The position numbers were made by a program, and so were the translations under genes. The notes beneath the pieces are model-generated. The model made no database searches. It was not told the DNA's origin and worked only from the letters and a program-made list of their open reading frames with translations. A DNA stretch of 64,000 nucleotides from Tribonema minus. Its lineage: Eukaryota > Sar > Xanthophyceae > Tribonematales > Tribonemataceae. Location of the stretch: the NCBI GenBank assembly GCA_017506865.1, contig JAFCMP010000542.1, positions 434,001 through 498,000 on the forward strand. The letters run 5' to 3'. This document shows positions 6,997-60,270 of this stretch, one piece after another (within the stretch, counting starts at the first letter, position 1; the number at the start of each line of letters is the position of its first letter).

Positions 6997-7009
6997 CATC
7001 AGAGTCTGA

Positions 7010-21495: not shown

Positions 21496-24400
21496 CTACA
21501 CAGCCTGCTGCGACGCGGCGCTGGACATCTGCATGGGCACCGCCGCCGCCGCCGCCACACCTGCAGGCGCCGCCGCGCTGCCGCCGCTGCTGCCTGTGCG
21601 CGAGAGCCTGGCGGCAGGGGCTTCCTGCTGCTGCTGCTGCTGGTGTTGGTGCTTGCGCGCCATGGCGTCCGCGCCTTCCACAAAGCGCTCCAGGTAGGCC
21701 TGCAGCGTCCTGCGGTCCGTCTCGCTCAGGCCCTGCGCAGGACTGCACGACACGCAAACATTGTCTTGAGGACAACAGGTGGACTGAAGTGCAAGCAGGG
21801 GCAAGGACAAGGGGTTGTGTGTGTGTGGGGGGGGGGGGGGGGGGGGGGGAAGGAGCGGTCCAATTGAGAACTGCAGCAAGGATGCATCAACATGCTCAGG
21901 GTCAAGCGAGGGCTGAGATAGGGGGCAGGGTCACGTTAGGGATTGGGGGCGGGCGGATGAGTCTACTTGAGAGCTGCAACAGCATGCACCATTGCAGAGC
22001 AATTCTGATGAAGTATCACCAGTGCTCAGCACACATTCAAGAAGTTGGCAATGGCGGTGTCTAAAGCAAGCGACAGCGGCAATTGAGGAAAAGCCAGCAC
22101 ACCGCTTGAAGGCCTTCCTCGCTCAATTCCCCGCTGCGTCAATACTGCCACGCACTGGACCACAGCTTTCAGGGAGACAAAACAAATGAATAAAAGCTCG
22201 CTACACACTCGAACACCAGCTCTGGGGGGCATCAAGAAACAGAAGCTCGCTACATACACTTGAACACAGCTCCGGGGCGCATACAAGTTGAAGTTGACGC
22301 TCACCCCGTGGACCCCTGCGACAGGCGCCCCGCCCCCTGCTGAGCGCTGCCGCCGATGCTCGCATCCAGCAGCAGCGTCTCCACCAGCAGCGCCGCGCGC
22401 TCAAACCGCTCACGCCCCTGCTCCCACTGCCCCAGAACCTCGCTCACAGCGGCGTCGTTGGCGAGTTTGAGAGCTGCCAGCAGCACCAGACGCTCCGCCG
22501 AGAGTGCCGTTTCGGCGGCGGCGGTTGGGGAGCTGGGCTGCGGCGCCTCAGGCGACTCTGCAGGGGGGCGGTCCTGATCCCTCATAGGATCCCGATTGGT
22601 GGGATCGCGATTAGGGTCTGCCCTGGTAGGATCGCGCTGGGGCTCCCTAGACCAGCTGGTGGTGTTAGCCAGAGCGTTGTCCATCTCGCTCGCTGAGGCA
22701 GCGGGTTGGCTCTTGAGCTGTGACAGGGCAAAAGGCAAATGCGGATGGGGGGCAGGCTTATGGTGAATCAATCGCCTTGCTGAAAATGCAGGGTTATGGA
22801 TTACCGATTTATAATTGTCACCTGCAATGGCGGGTGGGACCGATTTGATACGTGGAGCACCGCTACAAAGTCAAACCACCATGACGAGCACTGCCACAAA
22901 AGTCAAACCAGCAACGCAGCTCACTCTTGGTGTATGTTCCTAAACACCCGAGAGCAAATAACGATTGCTAAAGGTTTGTCGCAAGGTGTTCATGGCTGAT
23001 TTGCCTGATGCTGATCGTAGCCCTACCTACACCCTACCCAACCACACTTAGGGCACCTCAACTCCTCAAGCAAGCATATGATAACATCATGCGCCTGTGC
23101 GCTGGTTGATCACTGCTGTGCACTGTCTGTACTGCTTCTGCACTGCATCATCCAACAATGCCTGGTCAAAGACACTTGCGTTCACCACATTTCTCATCAC
23201 CTACTGAACCAATGAGGTGCAACAGGTACGCTGTGCATGTACAAGCTGTGGCGTTGCACAGGCGAGAAAACTGCGGTGACCTTGCTGCCGTCACCTCTGC
23301 CTACTGCAGCACCGAACACCAGACACTTCAACGCTTCACAAACTTCAACTTCCACTACCCAGAGACACTACATACATACATACCTTGGCATTGCACTGCT
23401 CCGAGCGGTCGAGCACTGCTGCAAACTGCTGTGCCAGCCACTGCTGCAGACCCTCCCCCCACGCCGTCACCTGCCGTATAGCATCCGCTGAACCCCCCCC
23501 CCTGCCCCCTCCGCACCCCCCACCCCCCCTTTATTGGGGGCACCGGCCACCCCCCTCTGTGCCTCCTGTCGAAGGGCGTCTTGGGCCTGGCGGGCCCATG
23601 TGATGGCCGTTTTTACCATGCTGAGGCTCTTGAGGTACAGGACCAGGGCCTCGCCAAAGAGCCGCATGCCATCTGCGCGCACATGTAACAGATGATTGTT
23701 GTTATTTACAATGAAGATGAATACGGAATGATCTCTTTTCAGCCAGTCAACAGGTTTGAAGTAGGGAAGAAGTACCACTCAGGTCTAACTAAGGCGTTGC
23801 ACATGGACTGGCTTTCTCAATTAAAGTGTGCAGTCATGTATGCGCTCTACCAGGGTCCATGACTCAGGGGTGAATGCAGTGAGCGGAAAGTGTGTGACGG
23901 TGACAGATGATGATGGAGAAAGCCTGAATTGCACGCACTGCTACCCCTTACCCCAACAGCAATCCCAAACTCATTGAGTGCGCATGCACAGCACTGACGG
24001 AGCAGCTCTGAGCATCACATGCGTCAAAGTGCAGCAAAATCAACTTCAAGTTGAGGACTGTAGCCCCCGCGCACAGCGTCGCCAACATCGACACCTACTG
24101 TGCTTCATGAAGAGATTCTTCATCAATGATTTCATTTTTGACCTATGGACCTGAGCGCCATTGCGGGCGGCGAGCCAGCATCAGTGATTCAGTATGGCCC
24201 TGGTGCAGCGCAGCTTCTTCAACAATTATTTCAACATAAACTTCAACTTCAACTCACGGACCTGAGTGCATTGCGGGCGGCGAGCCAGCATTAGTATTGC
24301 CCTGGTGCAGCGGCTCAGCAGCAGTGCCAGTAGCGCCCTCCCCCTCCAGACCCCCCATTCCCAGGCCCAGCGCAATACTGACTCCCAGCGAGCTGCTGCG

Positions 24401-27400
24401 ATGTTCAAACGGCGCTATCGCCGCCGCCGCTGCCGCCGCCGCGCCGCCACCGCTGCTGCGCGCAGCGAATGACGCGGCGCCGCTGCTGCTGCCGCTGGCT
24501 GCGGCGGCGGCGGCCGCAGCGGCAGCGGCAGCGTTGTTGCCGGCACGTGACGTGTTCTCCGTACCGTCGGTGGAGACGCACATGGCCACGAGTGAGGCGC
24601 ATGAGGCACGGGCCGCCGCGAGATGTGCAGCTATGTAGGAGGCGTGCAGCGCGCGGAGCGCAGAGTAGACCTGTTGAGACGTGACACGCGTGGGAGGGGG
24701 CAGGTAGGTATGGTGAGAGCCAACTCATGAGTAGCTGCGCTGAATGGGTGGTGGCACGCACGCACAAGGGTGGGTTAATGGCACGTAGAGTCTTAGTGGT
24801 CCGGAGTGGTGTTGCGAAGTTGACTGTGTTGAAGAGACAGCTCATGTGCATGCGCCAGTCACACAGCGCAATTTGCAGCGGCAAGTGATTCCGAAGATGA
24901 CAGAGGCGCTGTTGGTGAGAACAACGCCTTGTCCAATGCAGCTGCCAGCGCTGTACAATAGCAACTTCAACCATTCATACAGGGCCACCTATAAGAGCGC
25001 AACATGGGGTATGCATGGTGCTTGCAGCAGAAGCATCGCAGCTTGTCGTGAATTGTGATCGCCTACGCTGCAAATCACAGTCGCCCTGCAGACAGGAACG
25101 AAAAGCAGGCGAGAGCCACACAACCTCAAAATGTACTGATGCAGCCCCCGTCAACCATACTGATCCAGCAAAACCAACTCCAACTTGAACTTGAACTTAC
25201 GCTGGAGTCGCCCAGCTGCGCCAGCAGCACGGCTCTGCGGCCAAACACCTCCACCGCCTGCAGGCACCTCACCACACCCTCCAAGCCGGCTCCAGGGGGG
25301 GGTGCAGCAGCGCTCGCCCCCGCCGTCGCCCCTCCCTTGCCCTGCGCAGGCAGTTGCTTCAGGGGGGTATGTATGCTGGTAGAAGGGGCAGGTAGCGGGG
25401 GGCAGTTGCTCAGGCTGCTGCGGCCGAGAGGCGGCCTGGGGCACTGCTGCTGCGGCTGATACTGCTGCTGCTGCTGCTGCTGCAGAGAGTTGTACCGCGC
25501 CCCGTCGCCGCCGCCGCCGCCGCAGAAAGGCGGCTGCGTCTGCGTCGCAGAGTGCGCCGTGTGCAGCGGCGGCGCGCGCTCCACAATCACGTAGTCATCG
25601 CTGCCCGCCAGGGGGCTAGTGTCCCCACCCCCCTGCAAGTGTGCAGGGAGGCCCAGATTGAGCGGTGGCGGCAGCCCGTAGCCCCCCACTAGCCCCCCCC
25701 CCACGTGGTGCTCCAGGCCCCCCCCTCCGCCCCCTGCCACATTGGACCCGAGGACAGTAATCAGGGGCTGAGTGGACGGGGGCGAGGCGGTGAGCGGCTT
25801 GAACGCGTGCGTTCGCGGCGTCGGCGGCCGCAGCGCCTGCCGCAGCAGGTGCGGCGCGTAGCTGCTATAGCCAATGTAGCCGCCCGCCGCTGCCGCCGCC
25901 GCTGCCGCCGCCGCCGCTGCTGCCGCGTCCTGCTGCTGGCGCTGCATGTGCGCTTGGTACTCCGCGGCGACGGCGGCGGCGTCATGCGCGCCGCTGCCGC
26001 TGCGGTGATGTTGGAAGTGGTGCTGCGGCGGCGGCGGTACGTGAGGGCTGGAGGGCGCCTGTGTGGGCATGCTGTTGCGGCGCGGTTCCTGGGGGAATAG
26101 AGCGGGCAGGCGGGGCAGAGTATGGAGCGCAGCGGTCGTGTGAGAGGATGGGGTATGTATGTATGGTTCAAGTGATGGCAGGAAGGATTGTACAGTTTAA
26201 AAGGTAGCAGGAATGACTGTACTGTGGGGCGAAGGCTTGAGAGCACGGAACGGCAAGCATCCTGGTTCAAACTGGACAGCAAGTAGCCGCATTCTGGGTT
26301 GTATGTAGTCACAAATCCCGCAAGTTCGCCATATATTTATAATCAACCCATCCCTTTCAGTCTGCCCGCAGGATATACTTCAACAAGCCACAAGCACACC
26401 AAAGCACTGCACCACTACAGATGCACTAACATGCACCAACAACACGTACGCAAAGCGCTGCGCCACTACAATGCACTAGTTAGCAGAGCACTTACCCCCC
26501 CAGGCGACACCGGCGGTTTCCCCCTGCTGCCCCCGAGTCTCAGCTGCGAGTCACTCGCCATGCGTCCCAGGGAGGCCCTATCAGGGCCCCTTGCAGCCCC
26601 CCTTGCGGGGGTATGTAGGGTATGGGGAGACGGCGGCGGCAGCTGAACCGCCTCTGCAGACATGGTGCGCCGTGAGCGGGAGTCGCGATGCGTGGCTGCT
26701 GTTGGACATATGATGCAGCACAAATAGCAGCATACTAGCGGTGAGAAGTGATCAGGGATTGATGTTGATTGCGGGGCAACTGTGTGAGGGGCGCTAACCC
26801 TAGCCTGACATAGGGAAAGCAGTGGCATCGGCTGCTTCGATAGTTGGTGGGTGCGCAAAAATGGACAGTGGCACGATGCAGGGAACGGAGGACTATGTGG
26901 TTCAAGAGCACACACATGGTGGCAGGGGGCATGGGCTGGCCGTTGTACTACACATATTCTACTAATCGGCAGCACAATCATGTAGCGCCTTATGCGGTTT
27001 CTTGAGCGGCTTTCCAAAGTTCGCTGATCAGGCTTGCTGCACCAACATGCTGTCATAGCAAAACACGTGGTAGCTCACAACAGAAGCACACAACAGGGAT
27101 GTACTCTGGCAGACATTGACGATATAACGCATCGAACCGCAAGCCGGCCCTGTACTTGCAGCTCAGTAAGCCTCAAGACACTCATGCTGGTGGCACATGG
27201 GTACACACGTGACATCTTCACACTTGAAGTACACACATGCCTTGCACCTGCTGAACTTGCGCAGGCCGGGCTGATCGCTGCCACCTCTGTGTGTGCTCCA
27301 GAGGCACCATCACTATCCTGCAAACACTACATCACATGTGCACGTGCACAGCCCTGCTGCTCTGGTCGCGCTGGTCGCTGCCACATCTACGTGCACCGAA

Positions 27401-30400
27401 AGCCAACAATCACCGCTAATAGTGTTTTGTCGTAGCAGCTACAATGTGTGCATACATACGTACCCGCTGCCGCTCTCGCTGCGCTGGCCGCTGCCGCATC
27501 CGCGTGCAGCGCAAACTCTGGCGCTGTTGCACAGGCGGCATCAGCGCTCGGCCTGCCCCCCTCGGGTGCCCCCCTTGCGCGCATGGGCGGCGTGAGGAGC
27601 ACTGACGTCTGCTGCTGCGGTGACGTGCCGGGTGGCACTGCGCCTGAGGGAGGAGGGGGGGGGGGGGTGTCAGTCGATCAGGGTTGAAGTTGGGCATTGC
27701 TGACGCGGGGGGGGGGGTCAGTGTTGAAGGTGATGGTGTATTGTGGTAATCCTGCAGTTGGGAACAAGGTAGAACCTGAGAGACGCAAGGCGTCAACCTT
27801 GCTGTGTGCGGCCATTGTGGATTGGAACCAGGTCGGCAAAGTGGGTCAGCTGAGGCTGGTGATACACCCGCCTGTAAGATGAAAGCAGCAATGCAGTGTG
27901 CAGCCATGCCATGTGTTTGTGCGCAACCCCAAGGCTGTGCAGCCCTTCTCTACAGCACGTACGCCGTTGGTAGCCATTCTATCCTACATGTGTCTTTTCT
28001 GCCCTTCAGTGCCAGGGAGTGCTGCGCATACACACATACATACCCATACTGCTGCGCACCTGCTCCAGCATTGACGAACTCTGCACCGAAGAAGGTTTCG
28101 AATGACGCGCGCTTATTAGGGTCCCGCTTGAGCAGCATCTTGAGCACCTCCAGGCACCCCACGCCAATCTCAACATCCTCTGGCACCACCAGCGACCGCG
28201 ACTTGATGTTCTGCAACGCGCAACAAAGCAGCCAGAGCGGGATCAAGCGGAAGGAGAAGAACAAGAGGGGGTTACATCCAGCGTTGGGTGGGCGTGGGTG
28301 TGACTTCAAGTTGTATTTGAGTTTGTGCAAGTGCGATGCCAATGCATGGCGAGTTCATGTTTTTGCGTATTGACAAAGGTTAGGATACATACCTACCATT
28401 GCGTCTACGCCCCCAATTTCAGCAGCAAGAAAAAACCCGGCGGTAACAGCACGCAGCAGGCTAGCAGGCACAGTCAACGCCCTCGCTTGCATCAAGGGAA
28501 TAGCCGAACATCCATAAACACACAGACAGCACAGTAGGCTATCAGGCGCATGGCGCCAGCGCACGCACCTCGCCTGCATCAACAAAACAGCCAAACATCC
28601 ATAAACACATAGCAGGCAGTGGGTCAAACAGTACATCATGGCAGCGCACTCACCCGCAGCAGCTCCAGGTGGTTGGCGCCGCCAAACGGAGGATGCCCCA
28701 CCACCATCTCAAACAGTATAGCGCCCACCGACCAGAGATCCGCCTTGGCATCATAGCGACGACCCTCCAGAATCTCAGGGGCCATATACAGGGGGCTTCC
28801 GCACAGGGTCTCTGCCATGCTCGCCACCTCCAGGTGTCGCGCAAAGCCAAAGTCGGCGATTTTGAGAATAAGGCCGCCGGTGGCGGGAGCCGTGTGCGCT
28901 AGGCTTTCTGTAATAGGGGGGGGCAGGGGGCGTGGCGGTTACGTCAGTTGCAGCAGCAGCCAAAACTGCGGGTGAGTGCGTGTGCGTCAGCCCTCTGTGC
29001 AAGGGGCATGGCGGTGGCGTCAGTTGTGCCAGTCACAGCAGCCCAAAATGCCAAAATAGATGTCACGCCAGGCATTTTTTACGCTAGCGCAGGGAGCGTG
29101 GCTACCTACTACGTTAAGTAGGGTTAGGGTTAGGGTTAGTTAAGTAGCCAAAACTGCGGCAGAGTGAGTGTGCACCAGGCTCTCTGTTCAAATACAGCGG
29201 GCAGGGGGCGTGGCGGCTACAGCAGTAACTAGCAGCTGAAGCTGCAGCAGAGCGGAGGCGCACGCAGAGGCTGCGGCAGCAACCTGTTACAAGGGCCAAA
29301 ACTGCTGATGCAGCAACCTTGCCGTGCGACTATCAGCTGGAAGGCTGAGGCAAGTTCAATGCCTGCATCAATGACAACGTTATGGTTGACGTTCACAGCA
29401 CTTAACCTCGACCACACCGAGGGTTGACTGCGAGCAGTGCCCAAATGCAGCGAGGGCTGCAACTTCATCTTCAGAGCATCAACACTTCAACTCCTGGCTT
29501 TTTCTGGCGCCAACTGCAAATGGATCCCGTGTCGACATGAGCTCTTGCGCAAGGCGACATGGCATTTCAGACGACAGCACATTCAGAGGCCACAGACGCA
29601 TCAGCTTCAAGTGATTCCCAAATTGTCTGAAGTAGCCTCGAGCGCAGCCCGGCGGCTGACATCTTGAACTTGCCTTGCTTTCGCAAGCGTTCAAGTTCCA
29701 AAAACACGCCCAGCCGGCCAAGTTAGAGGAGCGTACATGACGCGTGAACCATTACGTTCTCATGGCAGTCCAGAGCAAGTACTTTCTAAAATCCACATGC
29801 AGGAGTAGGATACCTGGCAGCTTGGCCAGCAGCAGATTCTGCGGCTTGAGGTCGCGGTGAATCAGGCTGCGCTCCCACAGGAACTTCAAGCCTGCGGCGA
29901 GGTGCGTCATGAATGCCTGAGCCGTGCCCTCGCGTAACCGCCCTCGTGCCTTGATGAACCGCTGCAGATCCCCCCCCTCGCAGTACTCCAGTATCAAGTA
30001 GATGTTGTTGTCGGTTTTCTGACATGAGCGAGGTGGTGGGGTAGGTTAGTATGGGCTCGTACGCATCTTGCTGTGTTGATGGTTTGTGATCCATGGCATG
30101 CTGTGCGCATGCATGTGCTGCACGGTTGACCTAACCCTAACCCTAACCCTAACCCTAACCCTAAACTAACTTAGCCGCAGGCTCACACGTGTCAACAATG
30201 GCGTGACACGTGATCGATGGGCTATGTCGCATCAATCTGTGAACAATGGAGTGACACGTTGTGGGCTGGGTTGCGTCAACGTATTAGCAATGGAGTGACA
30301 TGTATCTAATCGATGAGCCATGTTGTCAATGTATGAGCGGCAAGACTGCTACTGCATGCCGAGTGACACACCCACAGTCCTTGAACTTGGTAGCTGATTG

Positions 30401-31519
30401 ACCAACAATGCAAGCTCTAGCAGTGGCATTTGATGCACCACATGAGTGGTGAAGTGTGCCACTGAGGTGACGTGCCACTGAGGTGACGTGCCGCTGAGGT
30501 GACGTGCCAATCAGGTGACGTGCCACTGACCAAATGAGCACTGCTGCCGTGCGACAGGCCACATGCGGCGGTTCAGCACGAGTACATATCAGCAGCAATG
30601 ATGCGGCCACTGGTGATGCCGCAAGTAATCGAGCAATCAACCAAGAGGTGCAAGCTGAATATACCACCCAAGCAGTGACAAAGTTGGCTCATGCCGCCTG
30701 ATAAACTGCAATGCTCATGTCAGGGCAATGAGGCTGCTGTGTGACTTACACAGGGGTTGAGCCGCTGCGGCGTGCCGTGCAGAGAGACGAGCAGACTCAC
30801 TGCAGCATTAGCATGATGCTCACCCATCGGCCCATTTGCGTTGCACGCGATGAAGCCCACCTTACACTTCACTTCAACCAGCCACTTCAAGTGATCGCTC
30901 ATGCACACCTTGATGTCATAGAGCTCCACCATATTGGGATGCCTGAAGTTCCGCAGTATGCTTATTTCGCTCTCCAGATTCTCGGTGTGCTTCCTGTTCA
31001 GCTGCTCCCTAGATATGATTTTGATGGCCACCAGGGACCCGCTGGCCCGATTTTGCCCCAGCGACACCTGCGGAAAGCACATGACAATGACATGACAGGT
31101 GTGACAAAATAGTCATGACAGGCCATGGTCTTGACAAACTGATAACTACATGCTGTGGCATGAAGCGAGGGGCGCGATGAGTGCAATGCGCAGTGCCGGC
31201 AACAGCATGTGCGCGGACACGTGGAGTAACTAGCCGAAAGTCGTCCAGGACACTGTGAAGGACAAGTGATGGTCTTGACTGTCATTGGCGTGCCTTGCTG
31301 CAAGCGACAAAAGATATTACTAGATAAAGCAAGCCATCCGGTGACTGGAGAGAGTTCAGTTGCGTTTATTCGGCAAGGGTGTCAGCCGACAAGCAAACTA
31401 CCGCAGCAGCATGTGAAGAGGGGCAGCTTGTCACCACTCATGTTCAAAGCGCTCACCGTCGCGAATGAGCCCTTTCCCAGCCTTGTAGTGAGGAGATACT
31501 CGCCCACATTTTTGCTCAT
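21496..31519 (-). CDS. ATG1: ATG1/ULK-type autophagy-initiating Ser/Thr kinase, 12 exons
   Basis: Exons: 31519-31457, 31067-30909, 30018-29814, 28907-28654, 28210-28060, 27643-27464, 26653-26496, 26088-25201, 24670-24262, 23672-23471, 22709-22305 and 21742-21496. They sum to 3321 nt (1106 aa) with matching phases. The start is the first ATG after an in-frame TGA. The kinase domain spans residues 8-270: glycine loop [11 protein letters not shown], Lys37 in [12 protein letters not shown] with Asp130, DFG with Asp161, and the ULK-like [13 protein letters not shown] long disordered Gln/Ala/Gly-rich linker follows, with SDDYVIVE at about 553-560, matching the ATG8-interacting LIR of ATG1/ULK. The C-terminus has helices resembling the tandem MIT (EAT) domain that binds ATG13: [60 protein letters not shown] and [15 protein letters not shown]. 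The exon 11 acceptor is the least certain boundary. Confidence 0.9.
24138..24212 (-). repeat. Copy of the exon 9 edge and donor site inside ATG1 intron 9
   Basis: GCGGGCGGCGAGCCAGCATC and flanks repeat the 3' end of ATG1 exon 9 (24262-24309), including the splice donor context CAG|GTCC. The two copies lie about 105 bp apart and differ by small indels. The copy therefore supplies a second, decoy 5' splice site. Confidence 0.75.
29117..29141 (+). repeat. Interstitial telomere-like tract (TTAGGG)3
   Basis: GTAGGGTTAGGGTTAGGGTT and flank lie in ATG1 intron 3. The tract is too short and too embedded to be a chromosome end. Confidence 0.85.
30131..30166 (-). repeat. Interstitial telomere-like tract (TTAGGG)6
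   Basis: This is the longest such tract in the window (CCCTAA on the plus strand) and lies in ATG1 intron 2. It is followed by a three-unit imperfect repeat of about 52 bp (30190-30330) and an 18-bp repeat (CACTGAGGTGACGTGC..., about 30456-30532). Confidence 0.9.
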
Positions 31520-32456
31520 ACTTGCCAAGTGCAATCAGCAGCTCCAGTTCGCTGACGCCTGACGGCGGTGCTCCTGCTGCCTGCGTGTCTTTAGCACCGG
31601 AAGGCGCCGCGCGGCGTGTGTGTTCGGAACAAACTCCGCCCAAAGCCCAAATGTGAGCCTGCTCCTGTTGTGTCGCCTAGCCAAGCCTGTGCTGTGAGAA
31701 CGGGCGCCAACTGCTTCAAGCAAACAGAGTGCTGGTGATGACGCCTAACGCTACAGGAGGGCTGAGATGATGGACTTGAAGTCACATTCGGGTGCTAAGC
31801 CATCGTACGGCGTTGGGTTTTCCGCCGCGGTTGTGTCCACCTGCTGCGTGACTTGCCCTTCGTGAAGGTTGCTGTGTACTTTCAGACGCAGCAAAAATGC
31901 GTGCTGACTGCGAAGCGCTCCTATTGTGCCGCTCCTGGACTCGAGATAGAGCTGGACCTTAGCCGCCTACGCTCTCGTGCAATGACCTGTCACACACACA
32001 CACAGCGGCGCACAGAGAGCTGACAGTGCACGCACTTGAGCTCAACTAGAAATGATCTCAGAAAGACAGCGCGTTCCTCAACCTCCAGCTGTGGAGAGTT
32101 TTGGATCCAATTGGACTGGAGCCACTGGTGCCACAGGTGCAGTGTGTGATCACGATCTGAGGTGTGGTGCACAGCGCATGTGGGGGGGGTTGCAGCTGCC
32201 CAGTTCATGTAGCTGCCGCAGTTGAATGCAGTTGAAACAGAAATGACAATGGTGACAGGCATGCAGCAATGCTGCGCAACTGGACATGCATGCCATCAAC
32301 CAGCACGTATCTATGGGAGCACGAACATGCACGAAAAGAGGTGCACAGGCAGGGATAGCAACAAGAGAAGGAATATCGTGCACATTTCTGAGAAAAACAA
32401 AAACATCACTGTTGTGCACTGCAGAAGTATCACCATACAAACGACGCACGTACATA
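31520..32456. other. Intergenic region upstream of ATG1
   Basis: This contains the presumed ATG1 promoter and 5' UTR and the 3' flank of the upstream membrane-protein gene, which is on the same strand. No TATA box or other defined element stands out, and there is no recognised exon. Confidence 0.4.
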
Positions 32457-33645
32457 CTATCCGACGTCAACCACGCCTGTGAACCGCCACCGCCGTACTA
32501 CAAGCACCGCCGCTGATGCAACAAACAGCCCCAACCACAACCAGACCCACACTGGCGGTTGCATCTGCAACCGCATGTATACTGCTGCACCCAGCAGCCC
32601 CAACGCGACAGCACCACCGCCGCCTATCAGCCGCCACGGCCAGTTCTTCGATCTGCTGAGCAGCTGACTGCTGTAGCTAGCACCATTGCCATGTGGCATG
32701 CCGAGCAACACATCATCGCGTCCGCCGCAATCCAGCGGCACATCTATGCTCAGCCAGTAGGCGCGCGCTTTGACGGACCCGTGCTGCCCTCTGCGTTTAC
32801 CGCCGCCGCTTGCGCTGCTGCGCAGCCGGCCCTGCCGCACGCTGCCGACGCCATTAGTCAGGCTGTCGCTGTCGTCGCTGGCGCTGCTGCTGCTCGCGCT
32901 GCTGCTGCTGCTACTGCTGCCGCTGTGCAGCAGGATGCAGCGAACAGCGGCGCCGATGCTGAGCAGTGCAGTCTGGGTAGTCCTGTCCAGGAATTGAAAC
33001 ATCCGCCGCATTACAGGTGCGGGTATGCATGAGCCACATAGCACAGCATGAGAGGCGGCGGCGCCACGCGAGACGCGGCCGACTTTAGGAGCTGTGCGCT
33101 GTGGCCGCAGCTTGGATTTCGGCTTGGTCTCGCTGGTAAATTTGAAGCCCGGGACAGGTTCATTGGGCCACTGTAGAAACGGCGTGGTTGCTGCTGGTTC
33201 CGCTGAAAGGAATTGCTGGCCGAGCAGTTGCGTTTGAAAGTAGGATGGCAGCAATGGCAATTGCTGGTCCTCTCTTTCCTGACTCCCCTCCCGGCTCTCC
33301 TCCCGCAGCACCCAGTGGAGGCTACCAAGGCTCTGCGTCGCCAGTTGGCCCAGGCTGGTATATCTGCACAAGATGACAGACCAGGGAGTTGAAAATGTTG
33401 TGGCGCTCAAATCGGTAATCTTCTATGATCTGGCAACGACTACTGTAGTACCAGCAAGATGCAAGATTAGTTGCCGTATATGGCGACAATCATAACATAA
33501 CAGGAATTGCAAAGATACATCACAGAAGTGGCACTTGCCTGGTTCCGCCCGCCCCGACAGCACCTCCGGCAAATAATGCCGTCCTTTCACCTGCTGCTGC
33601 TGCTGCTGCTGCTGCTGGAGAAGCTGGTTTCTTGCGCCGTGGCAT
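32457..33645 (-). CDS. Membrane protein of unknown function, two C-terminal helices, two exons
   Basis: Exon 2 (33363-32457, 301 codons plus stop) is a clear long frame. It has a hydrophilic N-terminal part, a Ser-rich stretch, then two hydrophobic segments near the C-terminus (GGGGAVALGLLGAAVYM and WVWLWLGLFVASAAVLVV), with a short tail FTGVVDVG. Exon 1 is ambiguous. The frame that has an ATG (33645, MPRRKKPASP then poly-Ala) joins in phase only if the donor is AG|GCAAGT (exon end 33539), a GC-AG intron, giving 337 aa. A poly-Gln frame would use the GT four bases further on (33535) but has no ATG. I do not recognise the family. A tail-anchored or hairpin organelle-membrane protein is possible. 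Confidence 0.6.
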
Positions 33646-33893
33646 GCACACACGTGAAGTGCGACAGCGCTGGCGAGCGAGCGGGGGCGCTTGAGAGCGC
33701 ACGCAGGCCGCCGCCACGGGCTCAATGTGCAGATCTGAAACCAGCAGACCTGTTAGAGGCTACTGTAACACAAGGCGAATGACCAAAAAAACGCACTTCA
33801 CTTGCAACTTCAAACCCCTCTTTTACCAAAATTCGACAAAACGGGCGTCTCGTGAGCTGCGAGGGAGAGGATTGGGAGAGTGCTGCTGCTAAG
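33646..33893. promoter_or_regulatory. Short divergent intergenic region (248 bp), candidate shared promoter
   Basis: The start codons of the membrane-protein gene (minus) and the LisH-lyase gene (plus) face away from each other across only 248 bp. Both 5' UTRs and any promoter must fit here. No TATA box is obvious, and the region contains a TTCACTTGCAACTTCAAAC motif cluster at about 33797-33815. Confidence 0.4.
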
Positions 33894-36800: not shown

Positions 36801-38493
36801 CCACCATCACATTGCTTAGCACCAACGCGCTATCAACTGCACGTCCGACACATCGCTTCTGACGCCGCCCCCCCCCCCCCTCTCCCCCTTCCCATCAACT
36901 TCAACTTCTCAGGGCCCCGCAAAACTCAAGTCTGCTATCAGCGACAACACGCGCCTCATCATGCTGGAGTCCCCCACCAATCCCATGCAGCGCATACTAG
37001 ACATCCGCGCCATCTCCGCCATCGCGCACGCGCACAACGCCATCGTGGAGGTCGACTCCACCATGATGTCACCGTGCCTGCAGCAGCCCATCAAGCTCGG
37101 TGCAGACATCGTGGTGCACAGCGCCACCAAGTTCATCTCCGGTCACAGCGACTGCATGGCGGGGGTGGTGGTGGTCAAGGACAGGGCCCTGGCGGAGCAG
37201 GTGTACTTCTTTCAGAACGCCGAGGGGACGGGTCTGAGCCCGTTTGACTCGTGGCTGCTGCTGCGCGGTGTCAAGACCATGCACATCAGGGTGGAGAGGC
37301 AGCAGGAGAATGCGCTGGCGGTGGCGGCGTTTCTGTCTGCGCACCCGCGCATCTCGCACGTGTACTACACGGGACTGCCCTCGCACCCCGGGCACGGCCT
37401 CCACATGTGAGTCACTCACTCGCGTGATCACTATCTTACTCACTCACTTGCTCGCTGACTCACACACGGGTCTGCCCTTGCACTCACTCCCGTGTGAGTC
37501 AATCACCCACTCACTCACTTACTTGCTCACTCACCTGCATGGGTGCGGGCGTTCAGCCGCGATCTCTACACGCCTGACCAACGATGCGTTTGAAATGTGA
37601 GGGTTGTGATCGGGGTTAGAATTAGACCAGGAGCTCTGGGGTTGAAAGCAAGCACTTGAACCAGTTTGTCCACCAACGCACTCCTGTTGTCTATCTAGCC
37701 CTGACCTTAACCTCTTATCACGATGCCTGTCATGATCCATGTCACTCACGCATTTGCTCACTGACTTGATCACGTCCTGGCAAGCCCCATCTCATTCTCA
37801 TTGAGCCGCTGCGGCGGCAGCTCGACACTATCAAACTTATATCGCAGTGAATCAATGCTCATGAAATCTGATGCATCACGTATTCTTACTTAGACTCCAA
37901 CCTACATTTTGGTTCAGCTGCTGTAACTGCAATGGCTGCACCTGCCATTTCGCTCCACATTTGGACGAGTACCTGCGTTTTAGTGTCATTCGCTTGTCCT
38001 GTAGTTTATACCTACTTCACTGTTACGCTCCCATAGACTTCAACCAGTGCCGTGCCGTTGGCTTCTAGAATCACTTTCCACGCCACTAACAATACCAAAT
38101 TATCCTCTCGCCCCCCCCCCCGCCCCCAGGTCCCAGGCCAGCGGCGGCGGCAGCGTCATCTGCTTCCGCACAGGATCCCTCCCCTTCTCCCAGCACATTG
38201 TCACCCACACCAAGCTCTTCAAGATCACCGTGAGCTTTGGCTCTGTCAACTCTCTCATCTCCCTGCCCGGGGCCATGTCGCACGCCTCCATCCCCGCGGA
38301 GGTGCGCGCCGCGCGTGAGTTCCCGGAGGATCTCATTCGCATCAGCGTGGGCATTGAGAGCGCGCAAGACCTCATTGCGGACCTGAGCCGTGCCATGGCC
38401 AGCTACGCTGCGAGCGCTGCTGCTGCTGCTGCCATCAAGCCTGCCGCTGCTGCTGACGGCAGCAGCGGCGGCGGCGGCAGTGCGGAGGCGTGA
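33894..38493 (+). CDS. Cystathionine beta-lyase with an N-terminal LisH domain, six exons
   Basis: Exons: 33894-33965, 34149-34206, 35383-35695, 36244-36478, 36913-37406 and 38130-38493. They total 1536 nt (511 aa) with all phases matching. Residues 1-43 form a LisH-like dimerisation motif (VLELVLEYLNTKGFTQAEQA). From about residue 110 the protein is a PLP-dependent Cys/Met-metabolism lyase of plant CBL type: YDYSRSGNPTR, SSGMAALSAV, VDSTMMSP, and SATKFISGHSD with the Schiff-base Lys at 299. The C-terminal signature is SFGSVNSLISLPGAMSHASI. Known family chemistry is cleavage of cystathionine to homocysteine, pyruvate and ammonia in Met synthesis, but gamma-lyase specificity is not excluded. 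There is no obvious plastid transit peptide, because the LisH part occupies the N-terminus. If the LisH exons belonged to another transcript, an internal Met near residue 64 would be the alternative start. Confidence 0.9.
35034..35440 (+). repeat. Three tandem copies of the CBL exon 3 acceptor edge
   Basis: Pyrimidine tract, CAG acceptor and the first 40-60 nt of exon 3 (GGTCCCGACTGGAAGGCC...) occur three times, with exon-like starts at 35065, 35230 and 35383. Only the third continues into the full exon. Copies are separated by shared intron sequence (TTGCATGCCCTCTTTGCAT, ATCTGTGACCGCTG). The first two copies keep the reading frame for about 15 codons. Confidence 0.85.
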
Positions 38494-47800: not shown

Positions 47801-50800
47801 CGTCTGTGGAAGTCAAATTGGACCACCAATAGTCAAAGTATGCCTTCATTCAAGTTGCTGTGCTGCAGAGCAGTTGGTTTATCACAACAGCGCAACTGAC
47901 AAGGTGCACAACACAACTCAGTGGACCAGTGCCAGGGATACAAAAAACAGCTGATAACCTTTAGCTGGATTATACAGCATGCCAGGCACAAGTTCCACTG
48001 CTTTCTTCAGGGAGCCTGCTTGGTAACACTTCAACTCAGCGCTGCCGTCAAGCGCCCAACGTCAGATGGTGCAGACGTACATCCCACTCAAACCCTAACC
48101 CCCACCCTCCCAACTACCGCAGCCCCTGTTCTCAGCGCAATTTAGGCGTCACAGCCCCCGTGCAGTTGTCGGGAGGGCTTAGGTTGAGCACTGTTCTCAC
48201 CCTCACCCCTAAACCTAACGCTTACTCTAACCCTAACCCTACCTGTAGTCATCCTCAAACTGGTTGAGACCCATGTGCGCCGCCACGCCGATCTGAAGCG
48301 GCTTGCCCCCGGGCCGCTTAGGGCCCGTAGTGTCTGTGCGCTTCTTGGTGGGCTTTTTCGTGGGCCTTTTTGTGGGCTTGCGCGTGTGCTTCTTGGTGTG
48401 CTTCTTGGTGTGCCTCTTGGTAGGCTTCCTGGTGATAACATAACACACAGGGACAGCGATCGACATGCAGTGGTGAGGCGCAGGGATGGAACAGATGTGC
48501 ACGTATGAATGTACTGCTGATGTAGACGTACAGGCCTGTGTGTCTGTCAAAGCTTGCATAATATGCATACAGTAGGGGGGTATAGTATGAAATATCCACA
48601 TCGCATTAGTGCTCAGCCATAAGTAGCAAGCCACACTGCCGTAGTGTCGCACTTGCCTGGTCGGACGCCTGGTCGGTTTGCGGGAGCGCTTCTTGGTTGG
48701 CCTCTTGGTGGGCTTCTTTGTGGGCCTTTGCGTGGGCTTCTTTGTGGGCTTCTTGGTTGGCTTCCGAGTGGGCTTCCGGGAGCGCTTCTTGGTAGGCTTC
48801 CTGCAACCGTAGGCACAAAGGGACACACAAAGAGGCGCAACTCAGAGACCGGGCCTTGGCTGAGCGCTGCTGCATGATGGTGGAGGGGAGAGGCTGCTGA
48901 GCGATGACATAATGATAATAATTGAAGTAGCTGATGCGGGTGCTTCGCTTTGTGGAAAGTGCTTGTGCGTACTTGCTGCAAGAGATGACTGTTGCCGTTG
49001 TCAAGCACTGCACTGCGCTTGCGTTGCGGGAGCGGCTCTGCGGGCCACCAAGGCATGATGATCGTTGGAGGTCGCGTTGGTATTCACAGGCTGAACATTG
49101 TGATATTGTGATGGGTTGTGAGATGGCTGAGCACTGATCAGATGTGAGCTGAGCACTGCGAGATGATTCATTGAAACTCATGCGAGACACCTACATAACA
49201 CATTGAACTGCTTTTGGCGAGCTCACTGAGTCAGTTCTCAAGCCAGACAGCCAAAGGTTCTGACGATGAACGCGGTTGCTTGTGCATGTGGCATGCGAAT
49301 GTGCACACACTAGACGTGACACGACGTGTCTGGTCCACATAGAACAACAGTGACATTGATGGCAGTCACTGACACACTTGAAGTTCACTTGCCTGGTGGG
49401 CTTTTTGGTCGGCTTTCGAGAGGGTTTCTTTGTGCGCTTTCTGCAAACAAGTGTCACAGTGGTCAAGGAACCATCCGGCAACAAAAGCGGTGATTAGAAG
49501 AGCAGGTGCTGCAGAAACTGCTGTGATAGCATCATGAGGCATAATGCATTGGAGTGAGCTTGAGAGGCCCAACTTGAAGGCGTTAAAAAAGCACAAAGGG
49601 TGTGTCTGCGTTGTCATTGGGGCGTCTCAATTCTGTGACACTGAAAATTTCACTGGCTACTTCGGACTTGCGGGATGAGCATGATCATGATGTAATTGGA
49701 AGTCAGGGACACTGGAAATCCTCACTGCATCAAGTCAAATTTATACCCTGGCGCGCACACTTGAAGTCAGACTCAACTTCAAATCAGAGACCCCTGGACA
49801 CGTGTCTCCCTCTGTGGCACACATGGCACTGCTGGGCCAGAGCTGCTCTGCATTGGTTTCACCCTTCAGCGATCATCCGAATCGTTGATGCCGCTATGCG
49901 ACTCTGAGTCAGTCACTAATAGTAGTACTAGTGACAGTTTGTCAGGAATTCAGAATCTGATCAGGTCGACTTTCGCTCATTCAGTAAGTCTTAGAGTTGT
50001 TGCAGCTGCTGTGGCTTGGTGTGCCCGCTATAGATGACGAGCCTTGTGCCCGACAAGCGTAATTCCGGGTTGCGCGTCAATTTTGGGTTGGGAATCATAA
50101 TGATTATGCGCTGCTAGAATGCGTCCCCCCTCCCCACACAACGTCATCGGCAACAAGTTCCGTCACATTAGCCGCCGCTGCAGCACATCAAACGGTAGGT
50201 GAAGACTCACACCAATAAACATCGTTCATCAGCAACAGTTACTGTTTATTGACAAGTGCGAGACAATGCCATGGCGCTGAGCCTCAAGCATGACAGTGTT
50301 GTGGAATCATTGAGTGACTTGAGGCCCTGGCATTCGAGTTGACGTTCACGTTGGCAACTTGAAGTTCAACACCCGGTAGAGCATGTAGCATAGAGCACAA
50401 CAGGATGTCAGCAATCAAAGTCAGTGCGATTGTCAGTCAGCACGAGGACACGGTGGGTTCGGATTCAATCGGATTGTTACAGGGTGCAATGGCATATCAT
50501 CACATACTATACCGCACTGACAGACTGTGGCAGCAAATTGGAACCTTTAGCGTCTTAAGCGGGAGCTGGCTTGAGCTACGAATACAAAATTTACTACGGT
50601 ACGCATTGGGTTCAACTTATTGATTTGGATCAGCGCAAAACGGACGGTCTCTTTCAAAGTTGTTTGAAATTGAATGCTACTCAAAAGTAGTCAGCAAGAA
50701 AACATCCAACACCGCCATAAAGGGTAGATTCTTGATGAGCAGCAAGCGCAACAGATTTGGTAACAAGTTGCTGTATTCCGACTCTGGATCTGATTCACCT

Positions 50801-54449: not shown

Positions 54450-57400
54450 ATGGACCGTGCCGTGTTGACGAGGCAGCGCAGGCCTCGCCTGCTGCCTAAA
54501 GGTCTGACAGTGTGTCTAGTGAGTGGGCTCGACGTCGTAGACCTGAACAACAAGGATGATTCAGGCCAGATGCTGCCGACACCTCCACCATATGAATGGG
54601 AGCAAAGTTCCCTTATACCTCGTTGCCTGGCGGAGCATGCGGACACGGGTCTAGAGGCGGTCAACGAGGGCGGGTGCGTGTTGAGACTGAGCCACTTACA
54701 GGATTTGTTGGCACAAGCAGCTCTGCCGGAGCACAAGGCTAGGTGAGATCCCTGTGAATTGTCCGAAGCGTGCTATACTCGCCTCTCTCTTTAGTTGTTT
54801 CCTTCGACGGCCCCTTGTTCCACGTGAAAGCAGTATGCTATTGAAGAAAGTCACTGTCATGGCCTGCAGTCAGTATAGTGCCCCCTTATTGATTATTGAC
54901 ACTAAACTCCAGCCAGCGCAGATTGAGCCACGCTGCTTGGTTTATCGCGTATATAGCACTGGCTATACGATGAATGGTGATCAGCTGGTGATTTACAACG
55001 CCGCACTCCATTGTTATAGCACTGGGACATCGAGAGCGTCTCTGTTGTACAATTCCTGGTGCAGTGACAGCAAAGAATGCAGGCCTTGCAATGCCATGGC
55101 AGCTTCGAAGTACTAGTAGTACCCTGCTATGGCCACAGCCAGCTACCCTCAGGCTGCTATGGCCACAGCAGGGTCACCTGCAAGCGCAACCATCCATGTG
55201 ACAATGCTGCTATGCATCTGGCGTAGTAGTGTAATGGCATTTTGTTAAAGAGGTGCACGCTTGATGTTGCTCGTGGCACAACTTGAAACTTTTGTTCTCG
55301 TGAAAATCAACGGCAGGAAACCTCGCTGCGTCTGTGGAGGTATATTGAGCACACCTTACCTTCTTGTGCGCTCTTTGACAAAACTAGTATTAGATGGCAC
55401 CCGCAGTTGCACTGCTTAGCACGCGGTTGCTTGGGAACGAGTTAGGGTTAGAGTTACGGGTAGGGTTAGTGTCAGCAGCCTAAGCCAACTGCGGCAGTCG
55501 CTGACGTCTGTACTGCACCTCTTCCAGTGTTACAAAGTGCTCAGCCGGCTGTGACAGTCTTTGAGGCTGATACTTTTGGGAGAAAATCCCTACACATGGT
55601 CTCCAAGAAACCATTAGTTTAGCCAGGCCTGAGCGAAGGCCACCGCCATGACCAGGCACATTGGCTGCCGGGCTTGGGACACTTTAGCTCCCGATGGCCA
55701 GCCCGTCTGGACGTACTCCTTCTGAGCAGGCTCAGCTGTGGCGGCACACACAGAACTTCAACAAAGTCAAGAACTTCAAACCCTGCGCTGCGCGCGCTTA
55801 ATACGGAGGGTTCTCTGTCCGCTGTTTTGGACACTAGCTTGCCACCTGAAGGGGATGATCTATTGCAGCTGTGCACTGCAGCTGCTGTTGACGGCCCAAG
55901 AAACACACATGAACGAGCAGGTCTTAACGCTGGTTTCCTGATCAAGTTCAGCAGGCCACCTGGCTACATGTCCTGAGCACTGACTTCATGTCCACGCAAA
56001 GCGCAGGCAAACCTGTCATGATCATGCCTGTGCGCGTGTACAAGACCAACTTCAAGTTGATGTTGTGCTGAGCATCACCACACTGCTGCTGCATGCGTTC
56101 TCGCTGCGCAGGTACAACGTCAAGCGCGCGTGGATCGTGAAGAACCCCCACATGTGGCGCCTGTACAGCCTTCACAGAGACGCCATCGCGCACAAGGGCG
56201 TGCCCCTTGCGGTCCAGATGCACCAGGACGGCGGCCGCAAGCCAGCCATCGCCACCAGTCAGGCACACGAGGTACTTCATGTGAAACTTCAAGTAGTTGA
56301 AGTGCATGAGTACTTGAAGGGCACGTGCTGACCTGCTAATGTGTTTGGTGTGCCAAGGGTGGCGATTGTCATTGCACTTTTTGACACAAGAGGCAGGTTT
56401 TACTGGGATGGCTACTTTCCGTCCAGACTGCGCTTTCAACTACATCAACACTCAGGCACACTTCAGTTCCGCGCTCACCACACGCGTGTAACTGGCAAAT
56501 ACGACAGCGCCTTGGGTGCATGATACAGAAGAGTTTGCTGCATACATACATACATACCACCATCAGGCGCGCTCACCATGGCCCGTTAATGTGCGCAGGG
56601 GGACAATTACTTCAACAAAATACAACAGCGCCTTGGATGCATGATGCAGAAGAGACTGCTGAATACATACATACCACCACGAGGCGTGCTCATCATGGCC
56701 CATGACAAAGCTCATACATGCACAGGGACAATCAGTGGTAGTTGCTGAGCGCTGATGTCAGGTGGCAGCGCTCAAGTCACCTTACGTGAGCGCCTTGAAA
56801 TCATCTCTGTGTTTACATGGTCCTCACCAGATGGCAACCTGCTGTTATGGGTAGTGCTGCAAGCATGCCATTTGCTCCGCCTATTTCTTCAGTGCACGTC
56901 GTTCAACATGAAGTTCAACGCTTCAATTGCACCGAAGTACCTTTGCTGAGTAGGCTGCTGGCCCCATGACTTGAAACCCGTGATTGTGTCGCTCGCAAGC
57001 CCAGGCGTTTCTCAACCTGTGCCTCTTGCCCTGCACTGCACTTGCAGGTGGGCAAGCTGCTGGGACTCAACCCTGCGGCCAACGAGCACCTGCTGTTCCA
57101 CGGCACCAGGACACTCTCGCGAGCTCAGGTCATTGCCACCCAGGGCTTCGATGAGAGGCTCAGCAAGCTCAGCAGCACCCTTGGTGAGAGCCGGTCAAAC
57201 GCGTATTGACTTCTTCAACTTTCAACTTGAAGTATGTTGAACTATCAGACAAACTGGGTGTGTGCTAGGGGTGAACTGTGCTCATGCTTGCACGGGGCGG
57301 AACCTGTGTAACATCTCACATTTGCTGAGCACTCAGCATTCAGTCCATCTCGACCATTGCAAACTGCAGACCGCCTTTTCTCCTTTCAGACGTTGGTTGG

Positions 57401-60270
57401 CAACTGAAAAAATTGTACTGATTGAAGTGGCTCTTGAAGTCGAGTTGACGCGATACCCTGTTGGATAGCTGTTGAGCATGCCGCTTGCGATGAGTTCAAC
57501 AACGTCGCCGCTCTCACAGCGCAGCCTGGTTGCAGCTGCTAATGGTAATGCGGCATATACACCAATCAGAGTGATGTTCATCTACCGACTGCACCGACAT
57601 CTTGCCAGGCTGCGCCATCAACTTTGCAGATGTATCAACCCAACTGCCCCACGCCTTGAGCACTTGATGGCACGCAGACTGGTGCAGCTGACCCAGCGAG
57701 CAACAGCGCGTGCTGTTGTGTGCGTCAGCAGCATGCCATATATACAGGTTACATTTTACCCTCACCGCCACCCAGTTACCGTCGCACTTTGTAGCTGAGC
57801 AGCTAGCACTGACGGCGTGCACCCTGCTCGCCAATGACTCACTAATGACTTGTGTCCCTCAGGCGGCGGCATATGTGTTACCCTCACTGCCACCCAGTCA
57901 CACTTGCGCTAGCCGAGCGGCTGCCACTGCTGACCGCGTGCGCGCTGCCTGCATGCGAGGTGCAACCTGACTTCAAAACGCTGGTCCTTCATGTGCGCAA
58001 CAAGTGCGGGCCCGGCACATTTCCAACGCCCGGGGGCTCAACCGCTTGCATATGTGCTGCTTACTAACGACTGACGACTGAACTGATGACTTAACGTCCT
58101 CATGATTCAGGCGGCGGCATATACTTCTCCGACAGCCCCGACGTCACGCAGGCCTTCAGCGCGTGCGTGCGCGGCGGCTTTGACGGCACCGCCGACGGCG
58201 ACGTGTTTATTCTGGTGGTGGCGCGCGTGCTCCTGGGCCAGCCCCACTTCACCTCAGGGGGGCACGCCAACATACGCCGCCCCCCCTGCATGCAGGGGCA
58301 CTTCTCCGAGGAGTGTGGGCACGCGCTGTGCGACTCCGTCATACGTGAGCAGGGTACGCGCCAGATGTGCATCTACGACCGCTACAGGTGCGTTGCCTGA
58401 AGTTAGCGGTGAAGTTGAAGGTGAAGTTTGCGCTGTGCGACTCCGTCGTGCGCGAGCGGGGATGCGCCAGATGTGCATCAACGACCGCTACAGGTGCGTC
58501 GCCTGGCAAAGTTGAAGGTGAAGGTGAAGGTTGCGCTGTGCGACTCCGTCGTGCGCAAACAGGGGACGCGCCAGATGTGCATCTACGACCGCTACAGGTG
58601 CGTAACTGTGTGAGGTTGAAGGTGAAGTTTGTGCTGTGCGACTCGATTGTGCGTGAGCAGGGGACGCGCCAGATGTGCATCTACGACCGCTACAGGTGCG
58701 TCACTGCGTGAGGTTGAAGGTGAAGTTTGCGCTGTGCGACTCGATTGTGCGTGAGCAGGGGACGCGCCAGATGTGCATCTACGACCGCTACAGGTGCGTC
58801 ACTGTGTGAGGTTGAAGGTGAAGTTTGCGCTGTGCGACTCGATTGTGCGCGAGCAGCGGACGCGCCAGATGTGCATCTACGACCGCTACAGGTGCGTCGC
58901 CTGGTGAAGTTGAAGGTGAAGTTGAATGTGAAGTTTGCGCTGTGCGACTGTGTCGTGCGCGAGCAGGGGACGCGCCAGATGTGCACCTATGACCGCTACA
59001 GGTGCGTTGCCTGGTGAAGTTGAAGGTGAAGTTGAATGTGAAGTTTGCGCTGTGCGACTGTGTCGTGCGCGAGCAGGGGACGCGCCAGATGTGCATCTAT
59101 GACCGCTACAGGTGCGTCACTGTGTGAAGTTGAAGGTGAAGTTTGTGGGCCTCGCACCGGGGGCCTGGGGCAGTAGGCAAGTATGGAGTGCACGGCTGTG
59201 TCTGCGCATGCAGGTAGGGTTGAGGACTGGTGATGCTAACGCGGGGTTAGGGTCAGGGGTAAGGGTCGGATGCATTCAATGTGGGAAGGCGCCAAGGTGC
59301 AGGTACTCCTGTATGATGAAGTGGTCAGACCGCCGAGCTGACTTCAAAACTCAGGAATTGCGCAGAACGCCCGTTTACAACCGGCACAGGTGTGTGATGA
59401 CGGTTTTGCGGTGTGCAACTGAGAAATGTTGAGGTGTCACAGCGTTGAGGTATGATGCCTGCAGGCACTCGCTGTGCAGCTTCAATCGCTCTGCGGTACG
59501 CAGATTGCAGTTGTAGTAGTGCTGTTGCTATGGAATGCATACTTTGTTGAGGGTTGGGGCGAGGGTGAGGGTTAGGTTAGGGTTAAGGTGCAACCCTAAC
59601 CCCAACCCGAAGTATACATTCAGAGTTTACTGCTGCGTTGAGGGCAAGGCAACTAACTGCCTTTGCCATGTTGCCCAGGGTCTGTCACCTGGTTCAAGGT
59701 GAAGCACCTTTGTGGCCACCACGGTGGAAGTGCAGTCGCCCTGATTGGTGACTCTCATGACCATCAAGAAACTTTGACTCCAAGTACACTTCTGTATAGA
59801 CTCGGGCAGCAAGCTTGACGTCCACCATCTGTTTTGTTTCGCGCTATGCGAGAATTACTAGAACGTTCAGTCACAGCTGTATGTTGAGTACTACTTAACA
59901 ATGTTCAGTCTCAGCTTTAAGTGGTGCTTTCTCAAATTTGCGGCAGGATGATCATGCGCATATCTACCGAGTATATGGTTGGTTGTGCATACATGCGCGA
60001 GACGTTGCGGCTTCAACGTGGCACTAACTTGAAGTTCGAATGGTTGTCTGCAGGTGAAGTATGATGGTTTATTGTCAAACTGCACCACCACCACGCACTT
60101 CCAAAGCTCGATGTACCTACATGACGCAACGTCCACATGCACGGACGCCTTCTGTGTAAAGATCAAGTATAATCATGCATGCTTACTTTACTCATAATGT
60201 GGACTTTGTTGCACCTTCATTGTGCAGGGCCTATCCGGAGTTTGTGGTAGAGCACACAAACTCCTTCTGA
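54450..60270 (+). CDS. PARP-type ADP-ribosyltransferase, five exons
   Basis: Exons: 54450-54742, 56112-56271, 57048-57183, 58111-58387 and 60228-60270. They total 909 nt, 302 aa, and all phases match. The N-terminal 98 residues show no known domain. The catalytic fold follows: RAWIVKNPHMWRLYSLHRD (as in ...QN..LW..Y of PARPs), LLFHGTR with His169, GGGIYFSDSP with Tyr201, VARVLLGQP, then MCIYDRY spliced to RAYPEFVVEHTNSF. Aligned against tankyrase-like YVIY...QAYPEYL, the third triad position is Gln281 rather than Glu. An H-Y-Q triad suggests mono-ADP-ribosylation or an inactive enzyme. The first exon is assigned because its AG|GTGAGA donor has phase 2, as exon 2 requires. Further upstream exons cannot be excluded. 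Location is presumably cytosolic or nuclear, as no signal peptide is seen. Confidence 0.85.
56500..56735 (+). repeat. About 120-bp direct repeat in PARP intron 2
   Basis: Two units share GCGCCTTGGRTGCATGATRC, AGAAGAG, CATACATACATACCACCA and GCTCATCATGGCCC-like blocks. Confidence 0.65.
57735..58124 (+). repeat. Repeats leading up to PARP exon 4, including a duplicate acceptor edge
   Basis: CAG|GCGGCGGCATAT, the acceptor and first codons of exon 4 (58108-58122), also occurs at 57859-57873. A relative of TTACCCTCACYGCCACCCAGT is present twice (about 57755 and 57879). The first acceptor would lead into a different, soon-interrupted frame. Confidence 0.65.
58323..59150 (+). repeat. Eight-unit array of the PARP exon 4 end plus donor and intron start
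   Basis: The last 65 nt of exon 4 (GCGCTGTGCGACTC... to CGACCGCTACAG|GTGCGT) and about 35-45 nt of intron (GTTGAAGGTGAAGTT) are repeated. Units start at 58323 (authentic), 58430, 58533, 58631, 58729, 58827, 58937 and 59047; periods are 107, 103, 98, 98, 98, 110 and 110. Every unit keeps the CAG|GTGCGT donor, and all but unit 2 (1-nt deletion) keep the internal frame (REQGTRQMCIYDRYR-like). No unit after the first has an evident acceptor. The last two units are nearly identical, so expansion is recent. Confidence 0.9.
59220..59610. repeat. Degenerate telomere-like patches in PARP intron 4
   Basis: GGGGTTAGGGTCAGGGGTAA near 59242 and AGGGTTAGGTTAGGGTTAAG followed by CAACCCTAACCCCAACCC at 59567-59606 are imperfect TTAGGG arrays. 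The second pair forms a short inverted repeat. At about 59350-59392 a weak relative of the exon-edge unit (CGCAGAACGCCC...CGGCACAG|GTGTG) may be an older, decayed copy. Confidence 0.5.

Follow-up and report, generated by a model that had tools for sequence, protein, structure and literature searches.

Copies of exon edges with their splice sites lie within the introns of several genes of Tribonema minus

Segments that span an exon-intron border, and that comprise the exon edge together with its splice site, were found to be duplicated inside the adjoining introns of several genes of Tribonema minus. The analysis started from a stretch of 64,000 nucleotides (contig JAFCMP010000542.1, positions 434,001-498,000), referred to here as the window, to which coordinates without a locus name refer. 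The pattern of edge copies is real, recurrent, partly recent and far above chance, and its recurrence across genes is clear. An excess of the copies over intron interiors is likely, and a preference of the duplications for exon edges is possible. As judged from the sequence, the copies are quite probably the outcome of local duplication of an ordinary kind, on which splicing and selection act as filters and by which existing introns grow. Junction-spanning copies holding the splice site are present in CBL, GH26, ATG1, the PARP donor, RPN5 and L034 (a paralog of CBL). Six cases in four genes had been listed in the original prediction. Four of these proved solid, the PARP acceptor was found to be old and weak, the donor of GH26 exon 8 could not be recovered, and two edges beyond that list were added (the ATG1 28907 acceptor and the GH26 47113 donor). 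The identity of PARP was supported by a Pfam score of 27.1 bits (cut-off 26.7) and that of GH26 by 22.6 bits (cut-off 20.2). The genes called CBL and ATG1 matched the Pfam Cys/Met PLP enzyme and protein kinase families, respectively, and keep the names given to them in the original prediction.

At the donor side of PARP, where eight copies had been predicted, eight units were counted. The end of exon 58111-58387 is followed in the next intron by seven more units, each made up of the exon edge and a GT donor (58323-59145, plus strand). The units were located by the string GACCGCTACAGGTGCGT, and the presence of this string in every unit is therefore by construction. The units are spaced 106, 104, 98, 98, 98, 110 and 110 bp apart, none of the seven spacings being a multiple of 3. 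The exon unit shares 81-83% identity with each of the other seven, and the inner units are up to 98% identical. Alignment showed that GT is kept in 7/7 donor copies, and an in-frame stop is located 10 nt into the intron past the donor. Being a head-to-tail array of eight units, the PARP array has the form of a minisatellite. The hexamers TTGAAG/CTTCAA and ACTTCA/TGAAGT were observed to be ∼4 times commoner in the 312-kb sample described below than predicted from dinucleotides, and TTGAAG is also present in the intron part of the PARP unit. At the PARP acceptor, for which two copies had been predicted, an edge match was seen in which TCAG|GCGGCGGCATAT is identical at 16/16 bases between the original edge (58107-58122) and a copy at 57859-57874, with a further block upstream (73% over 75 bases). 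The gapped alignment of this intron end (57756-58126, plus strand) fits, if weakly, a single old duplication. A genome search with PARP 57000-59300, which skips very common words, returned, besides the region itself, one 89-base match (77%) outside the array and one of 36 bases within the GAAGTT-rich portion of the unit. No full second copy representing a second allele of the PARP region was obtained in this search of one genome. The locus L007 was considered as a PARP paralog with an array and was rejected, as its similarity is limited to ∼90 bases at 77% identity and a search with the PARP protein gave no match in it.

The acceptor side of CBL carries the three copies that had been predicted, each consisting of intron end, CAG and exon start (35035-35426, plus strand; exon 35383-35695). 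Self-BLAST placed the copies at shifts of 165 (79.8%) and 319 (89%), and the best copy matches at 73/84 bases, including GCAG|GGTC. A genome search with the CBL region identified the paralog L034 on contig C161, which differs from the window CBL at 50/164 four-fold sites. Exon 3 of L034 has the same borders as in the window CBL, and the acceptor copy was absent from the 1.2 kb aligned upstream of it (best score 24). L034 harbors its own donor-edge copy with GT, 81 bp in length, 77/81 identical (95%) and located 145 bases downstream of the donor; a copy of this type was absent from the window CBL (best score 17). The intron after exon 3 measures ∼623 bases in L034 vs 548 in the window CBL, as taken from alignment positions. 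Since each paralog has its own copy and is without that of the other, an origin specific to each paralog is directly indicated and both events post-date the gene duplication. Most simply, the duplications at the two edges of this exon would have arisen separately after that event; a less simple alternative is that each line lost a copy that was present earlier. The CBL introns are older than the copies, because the exon borders are shared by a paralog that is without the acceptor array.

In GH26, the donor of exon 6 (exon 45397-45482), for which two to three copies had been predicted, is solid with two. The exon end with 11 intron bases (45386-45458, minus strand) recurs as a 73-base block at a shift of 241 (45145-45217, minus strand). 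This copy is 94.5% identical, lies 168 bases from its source and retains its GT, with 67/71 bases matching in the donor comparison. The two copies predicted at the donor of exon 8 were not found at either candidate exon end. With the exon taken as ending at 44774, the match was confined to 13/14 intronic bases, and with the end at 43735, it was 8 bases long; by alignment, a 22-base pair (86%) adjoins the acceptor of exon 44774-44868 and not its donor. The donor edge of exon 47113-47280 (47061-47133, minus strand), one of the two additions, has a copy at 46832-46902 (minus strand; 78% over 73) and a second, partial copy at 46985-47022 (minus strand; 87% over 39), which reaches only 3 bases into the exon. 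No full second copy of GH26 was present among the best 40 of 42 candidates in a genome search. Positions 46923-46978, inside a GH26 intron, hold a dispersed motif of ∼50 bases with at least ∼32 matches elsewhere in the genome at 78-93%. In ATG1, two copies had been predicted at the donor of exon 9, and they were confirmed. The end of exon 24262-24670 with its donor (24258-24312, minus strand) is copied at 24147-24210 (minus strand; 81% with gaps), where CTCAG|GTCC is kept. The exon ending at 27464 was dropped as a candidate for exon 9, the one ending at 24262 fitting the location at which the copies had been placed; near 27464, there is an exon-only copy that ends 3 bases short of the splice site. 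The second addition is the acceptor edge of exon 28654-28907 (28892-28957, minus strand), a copy of which is located in the upstream intron with its AG kept (29168-29236, minus strand; 77% over 70; 43/54).

Outside the window, edge copies were observed in the Pfam-recognised genes of a glycosyltransferase with a family 28 C-terminal domain, RPN5 and PAN3. The first of these presumably resembles MGDG synthase. The copy at its exon 4 comprises ∼109 bases at a shift of 157, and the region of the gene (L013:6300-9000) is present a second time on contig C248, with 100% identity over 2701 bases (C519/C248), so that a comparison of the two as alleles is uninformative on the activity of the process. 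The RPN5 edge duplicates form several units, one of which was called by the gene finder as a 57-base in-frame exon; this predicted exon is probably itself a copy. Genome searches gave no full second copy of RPN5 among the best 40 of 2013 candidates and listed none for PAN3. An RPN5 intron also contains a ∼168-bp repeat (L028:5453-5620) with at least 39 further copies at 87-92% and no Rfam family. The copies take two forms, namely, contiguous tandem arrays (PARP, CBL, RPN5 and L008, a locus whose protein matches no Pfam family) and short blocks set off from their source (GH26, L034 and glycosyltransferase exon 4), and some junction-spanning copies thus stand apart from the source and are not strictly head to tail. 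The ratio of block length to shift among 186 self-alignment pairs in the sample was at least 0.9 in 48, 0.5-0.9 in 41 and below 0.5 in 97. Plain slippage therefore accounts for only part of the copies.

Several other repeats and assembly features were recorded. A direct tandem duplication with a length of 4310 bp occupies positions 1797-10419 of the window; its copies share 99.93% identity over 4314 bases, and it is either recent or an assembly artefact. A repeat of ∼530 bp at 40199-40731 has at least 43 matches elsewhere in the genome on both strands, 42 of those at 99-100%, and a genome search with 26900-46000 was dominated by a repeat (best 39 of 1862 candidates). Short interstitial runs of TTAGGG/CCCTAA are located in introns or between genes at 29119-29139, 30130-30164, 46453-46478, 47644-47667 and 48207-48241. 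Rfam searches of the window and of L013, L028 and L026 gave 0 matches. Fragments of the rubisco large-subunit gene, with one stop codon each, were found on contigs C334 (L032:1501-1689) and C112 (L033:1501-1650). They are probably pieces of plastid DNA in the nucleus, and we take them to be of the red-algal-lineage type. Kinase matches with equal or near-equal scores and in parallel order on C144/C223/C278 and on C90/C179 suggest that these contigs are redundant or allelic assembly pieces.

The frequency of edge copies was determined in 312 kb of the 158-Mb genome (554 contigs), a sample comprising the window and, in addition, five blocks of 40 kb each, three smaller pieces and seven short loci. 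The blocks came from contigs that had been chosen for PARP matches and not for exon-edge copies, and C539 is the window's own contig. Gene models were our own predictions, obtained with a gene finder for which long open frames served as the training set. These gave 53 genes and 108 introns, with predicted donors approximating AG|GT(G/A)NG and predicted acceptors of GCAG|G, and a second, looser set of models was kept as a check on the edge counts. Probes consisted of 60 bases centred on the exon-intron border and were compared with targets of 600 bases. Excluded before counting were predicted genes with <240 coding bases or below score 12, low-complexity probes, probes too close to a sequence end, and introns <250 bases (edge counts, outside-gene comparison and border profile) or <450/600 bases (matched test). 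The PARP donor and the GH26 exon-6 donor are missing from the set of predicted junctions, and the counts are therefore without them. The ATG1 exon 9 copy was not scored as spanning because it has only 4 intron bases. L034 was added after counting and enters no count, and L008, which entered through the PARP query, was excluded from the non-window set.

A spanning copy was present on the intron side at 11/148 predicted intron ends and on the exon side at 1/146, an asymmetry that is directly observed. In distant 600-base windows, it was present in 0/909. When the window and the loci from the PARP search were set aside, the corresponding counts were 7/94 for edges and 1/584 for distant windows. 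Probes within introns matched in 31/886 (60-150 bases in), 8/885 (150-300) and 12/558 (300-600), and those within exons in 3/885. The profile across the border has its maximum at the border itself (11/147 at 0, against 0/123 at 105 bases on the exon side and 1/148 at 210 bases on the intron side) and rises slightly again at greater distances (2/101 at 150 bases into the exon and 4/142 at 300 bases into the intron). In a matched test, edges were compared with the interior of the same introns, with targets confined to the intron. Copies were found at 11/129 ends (32 genes) vs 2.76 expected (P<0.001, gene-bootstrap interval 0.022-0.107) and, in the non-window pieces, at 7/88 vs 1.20 expected (P=0.0003, interval 0.007-0.127); in our own gene models, the excess over interiors is thus an observation. 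With C78 and the L loci removed and the window included, the test gave 5 vs 1.10 of 99, the interval extending from -0.001 to 0.08 with 300-base targets and from 0.003 to 0.1 with 400-base targets, and at a threshold of 40, the interval of the matched test touches zero. The looser gene models yielded 11/237 edges vs 5.76 expected, with a resampling P of 0.006 and a gene-bootstrap interval that includes zero; in these models, the rate outside genes (60/903) exceeded that at edges. One or more edge copies were present in 8/32 genes. The non-window matches are confined to 2/8 pieces (C519 and C78), and RPN5 contributes 3/7 of them, one at the predicted 57-base exon. Introns are longer where an end carries a copy, with a median of 1176 vs 709 bases, as counted per end and hence not independently. 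The process had been proposed to be genome-wide. It does recur outside the window in Pfam-recognised genes, and "genome-wide" is here a statement on a sample, because 312 kb of 158 Mb was examined.

General tandem-repeat density had been proposed as the yardstick for the pattern, and here the outcome was divided, as the edge copies exceed intron interiors but are not above the rate outside predicted genes. The latter was 47/1190, or 92/1856 (5.0%) on a regular grid, vs 7.4% (11/148) at edges (P=0.12; non-window P=0.25). This agrees with an alternative which deserves serious weight, although we tend to doubt it, namely, that non-coding DNA carries tandem copies at an even density and those at edges are easier to see, as the part that lies in the exon changes slowly and is protected from deletion. 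A gene-wise sign test was likewise not significant (8 vs 5, P=0.29). Pairs with an exon part stay recognisable longer because the exon copy is conserved, and with all 28 spanning copies of 15 cases taken into the identity counts, exon parts were indeed better kept than intron parts (554/612 vs 583/685, P=0.003, in the 14 cases without the PARP donor; 908/1001 vs 853/980, P=0.01, with it). However, the exon part was better kept in only 5/15 single cases; some of the intron parts measure just 4-11 bases. Simulated substitutions and small indels prolonged visibility by 1.18-1.29-fold (large deletions, which would add to this, being outside the model), compared with an observed excess over interiors of ∼4-fold overall and 6-fold in the non-window pieces, and an even spread does not account for the maximum of the profile at the border. 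It is also conceivable, but rather unlikely, that borders are hot spots of ongoing local duplication tied to a feature of the border (transcription, R-loops or repair), introns lengthening outward from both exon edges.

The fate of the copied splice sites bears on whether the copies are in use, as alternative exons or as spare splice sites under selection. The splice dinucleotide was kept in 25 of the 28 aligned copies, lost in 2 and gapped in 1, which, along with the RPN5 copy called as an in-frame exon, would favor such a role. Against it, 7/7 PARP spacings break the frame, and the CBL paralogs differ in their copies. In addition, read-through past the donor was checked in six donor cases and reaches a stop in 6/6, at a distance of 10 to 201 bases. 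The stop precedes the first copied donor in 5/6 of these; the remaining case is the glycosyltransferase, whose copied donor at +157 puts the reading out of frame. Owing to the frame-breaking PARP spacings and the read-through stops, splicing at a copied site would be detrimental to the protein in most cases. A function of the copies therefore seems very improbable to us, and silent growth of the intron appears to be the likeliest outcome.

Intron gain, in which an exonic AGGT segment would have been duplicated in tandem and the resulting array would itself have created the intron, had also been proposed, and this part of the original prediction was unsupported. The PARP units do carry AG|GT, and tandem duplication is an accepted route of intron gain (PMC3443670, in excerpt). 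The duplicated segment, however, is not purely exonic, as the copies hold 4 to 59 bases of the adjoining intron, and at CBL, the sole gene where the claim was testable, exon 3 of L034 has identical borders even though the acceptor array is absent there; we give this origin very little credence. Least credible is the insertion of an introner-like mobile sequence beside splice sites, since, although the genome has several dispersed repeat families, the PARP unit (the PARP array alone being tested) is matched elsewhere by 36 bases only and each array is built from the edge of its own gene.

Growth of existing introns through ordinary local duplication would proceed as follows. Segments of ∼50-250 bp would be duplicated frequently, either as head-to-tail pairs or with a small gap between the copies, and the presumed mechanism is break repair or slippage during replication; where a block does not adjoin its source, template switching during templated repair may be supposed. 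Where a duplicate spans an exon-intron border, the original edge and splice site would stay in place and the extra copy would land in the intron. Provided that the original site is still the one spliced in the RNA, as we infer, the protein would be unchanged and the intron longer. In the mirror outcome, the exon would be lengthened by the copy, the frame broken or a stop added, and the product removed by selection. Some duplicates would expand further to short minisatellites, such as those of PARP (8 units) and RPN5 (several). Intron lengthening without transposons is rarely visible in progress, and the process is made countable here by copies of graded age, a pair of CBL paralogs and a measurable peak at exon edges. 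Duplicated splice sites can evidently pile up, probably without change to the protein.

Intronic minisatellites exist as a class, and the PARP units resemble them in expanding as a tandem array of 98-110 bp, but differ from them in that the founding unit includes coding sequence and a donor site. Human introns are reported to have come from tandem arrays (Zhuo, 2007), and the tandem genomic duplication model of intron gain is said to be that of Rogers in 1989 and of Gao and Lynch in 2009. None of the titles and abstract openings of the literature consulted described arrays of exon edges as a general means by which introns lengthen. Tandem duplication is an established source of introns in excerpts of PMC3443670, and the present cases are similar in that duplication takes place around AG|GT within genes and is tolerated through splicing; in that model, exonic sequence is copied and an intron is created, whereas here the intron pre-existed, at CBL at least. 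New introns of Daphnia with internal direct repeats that stem from staggered breaks were read as passive growth by break repair (PMC4202315, in excerpt). Break repair is likewise proposed here as a passive source of intron lengthening, but the Daphnia repeats at exon ends measure 4-12 bp, while the present copies mostly measure ∼30-130 bp and include the splice site. In excerpt, PMC9860276 and PMC3257199 contain only mentions. In the RdRp gene of potato, tandem duplication across an intron end and exon start made a new intron (PMC4974935, in excerpt). As in that gene, the duplicated piece in CBL consists of the 3′ part of an intron, the splice site and the 5′ part of an exon. Unlike the potato copy, which gave a new intron, the copies in Tribonema are taken to represent only growth of existing introns, and donor and acceptor sides are both affected, in several genes. 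Duplication across a border into an intron is a known kind of event, and here it is found in many genes.
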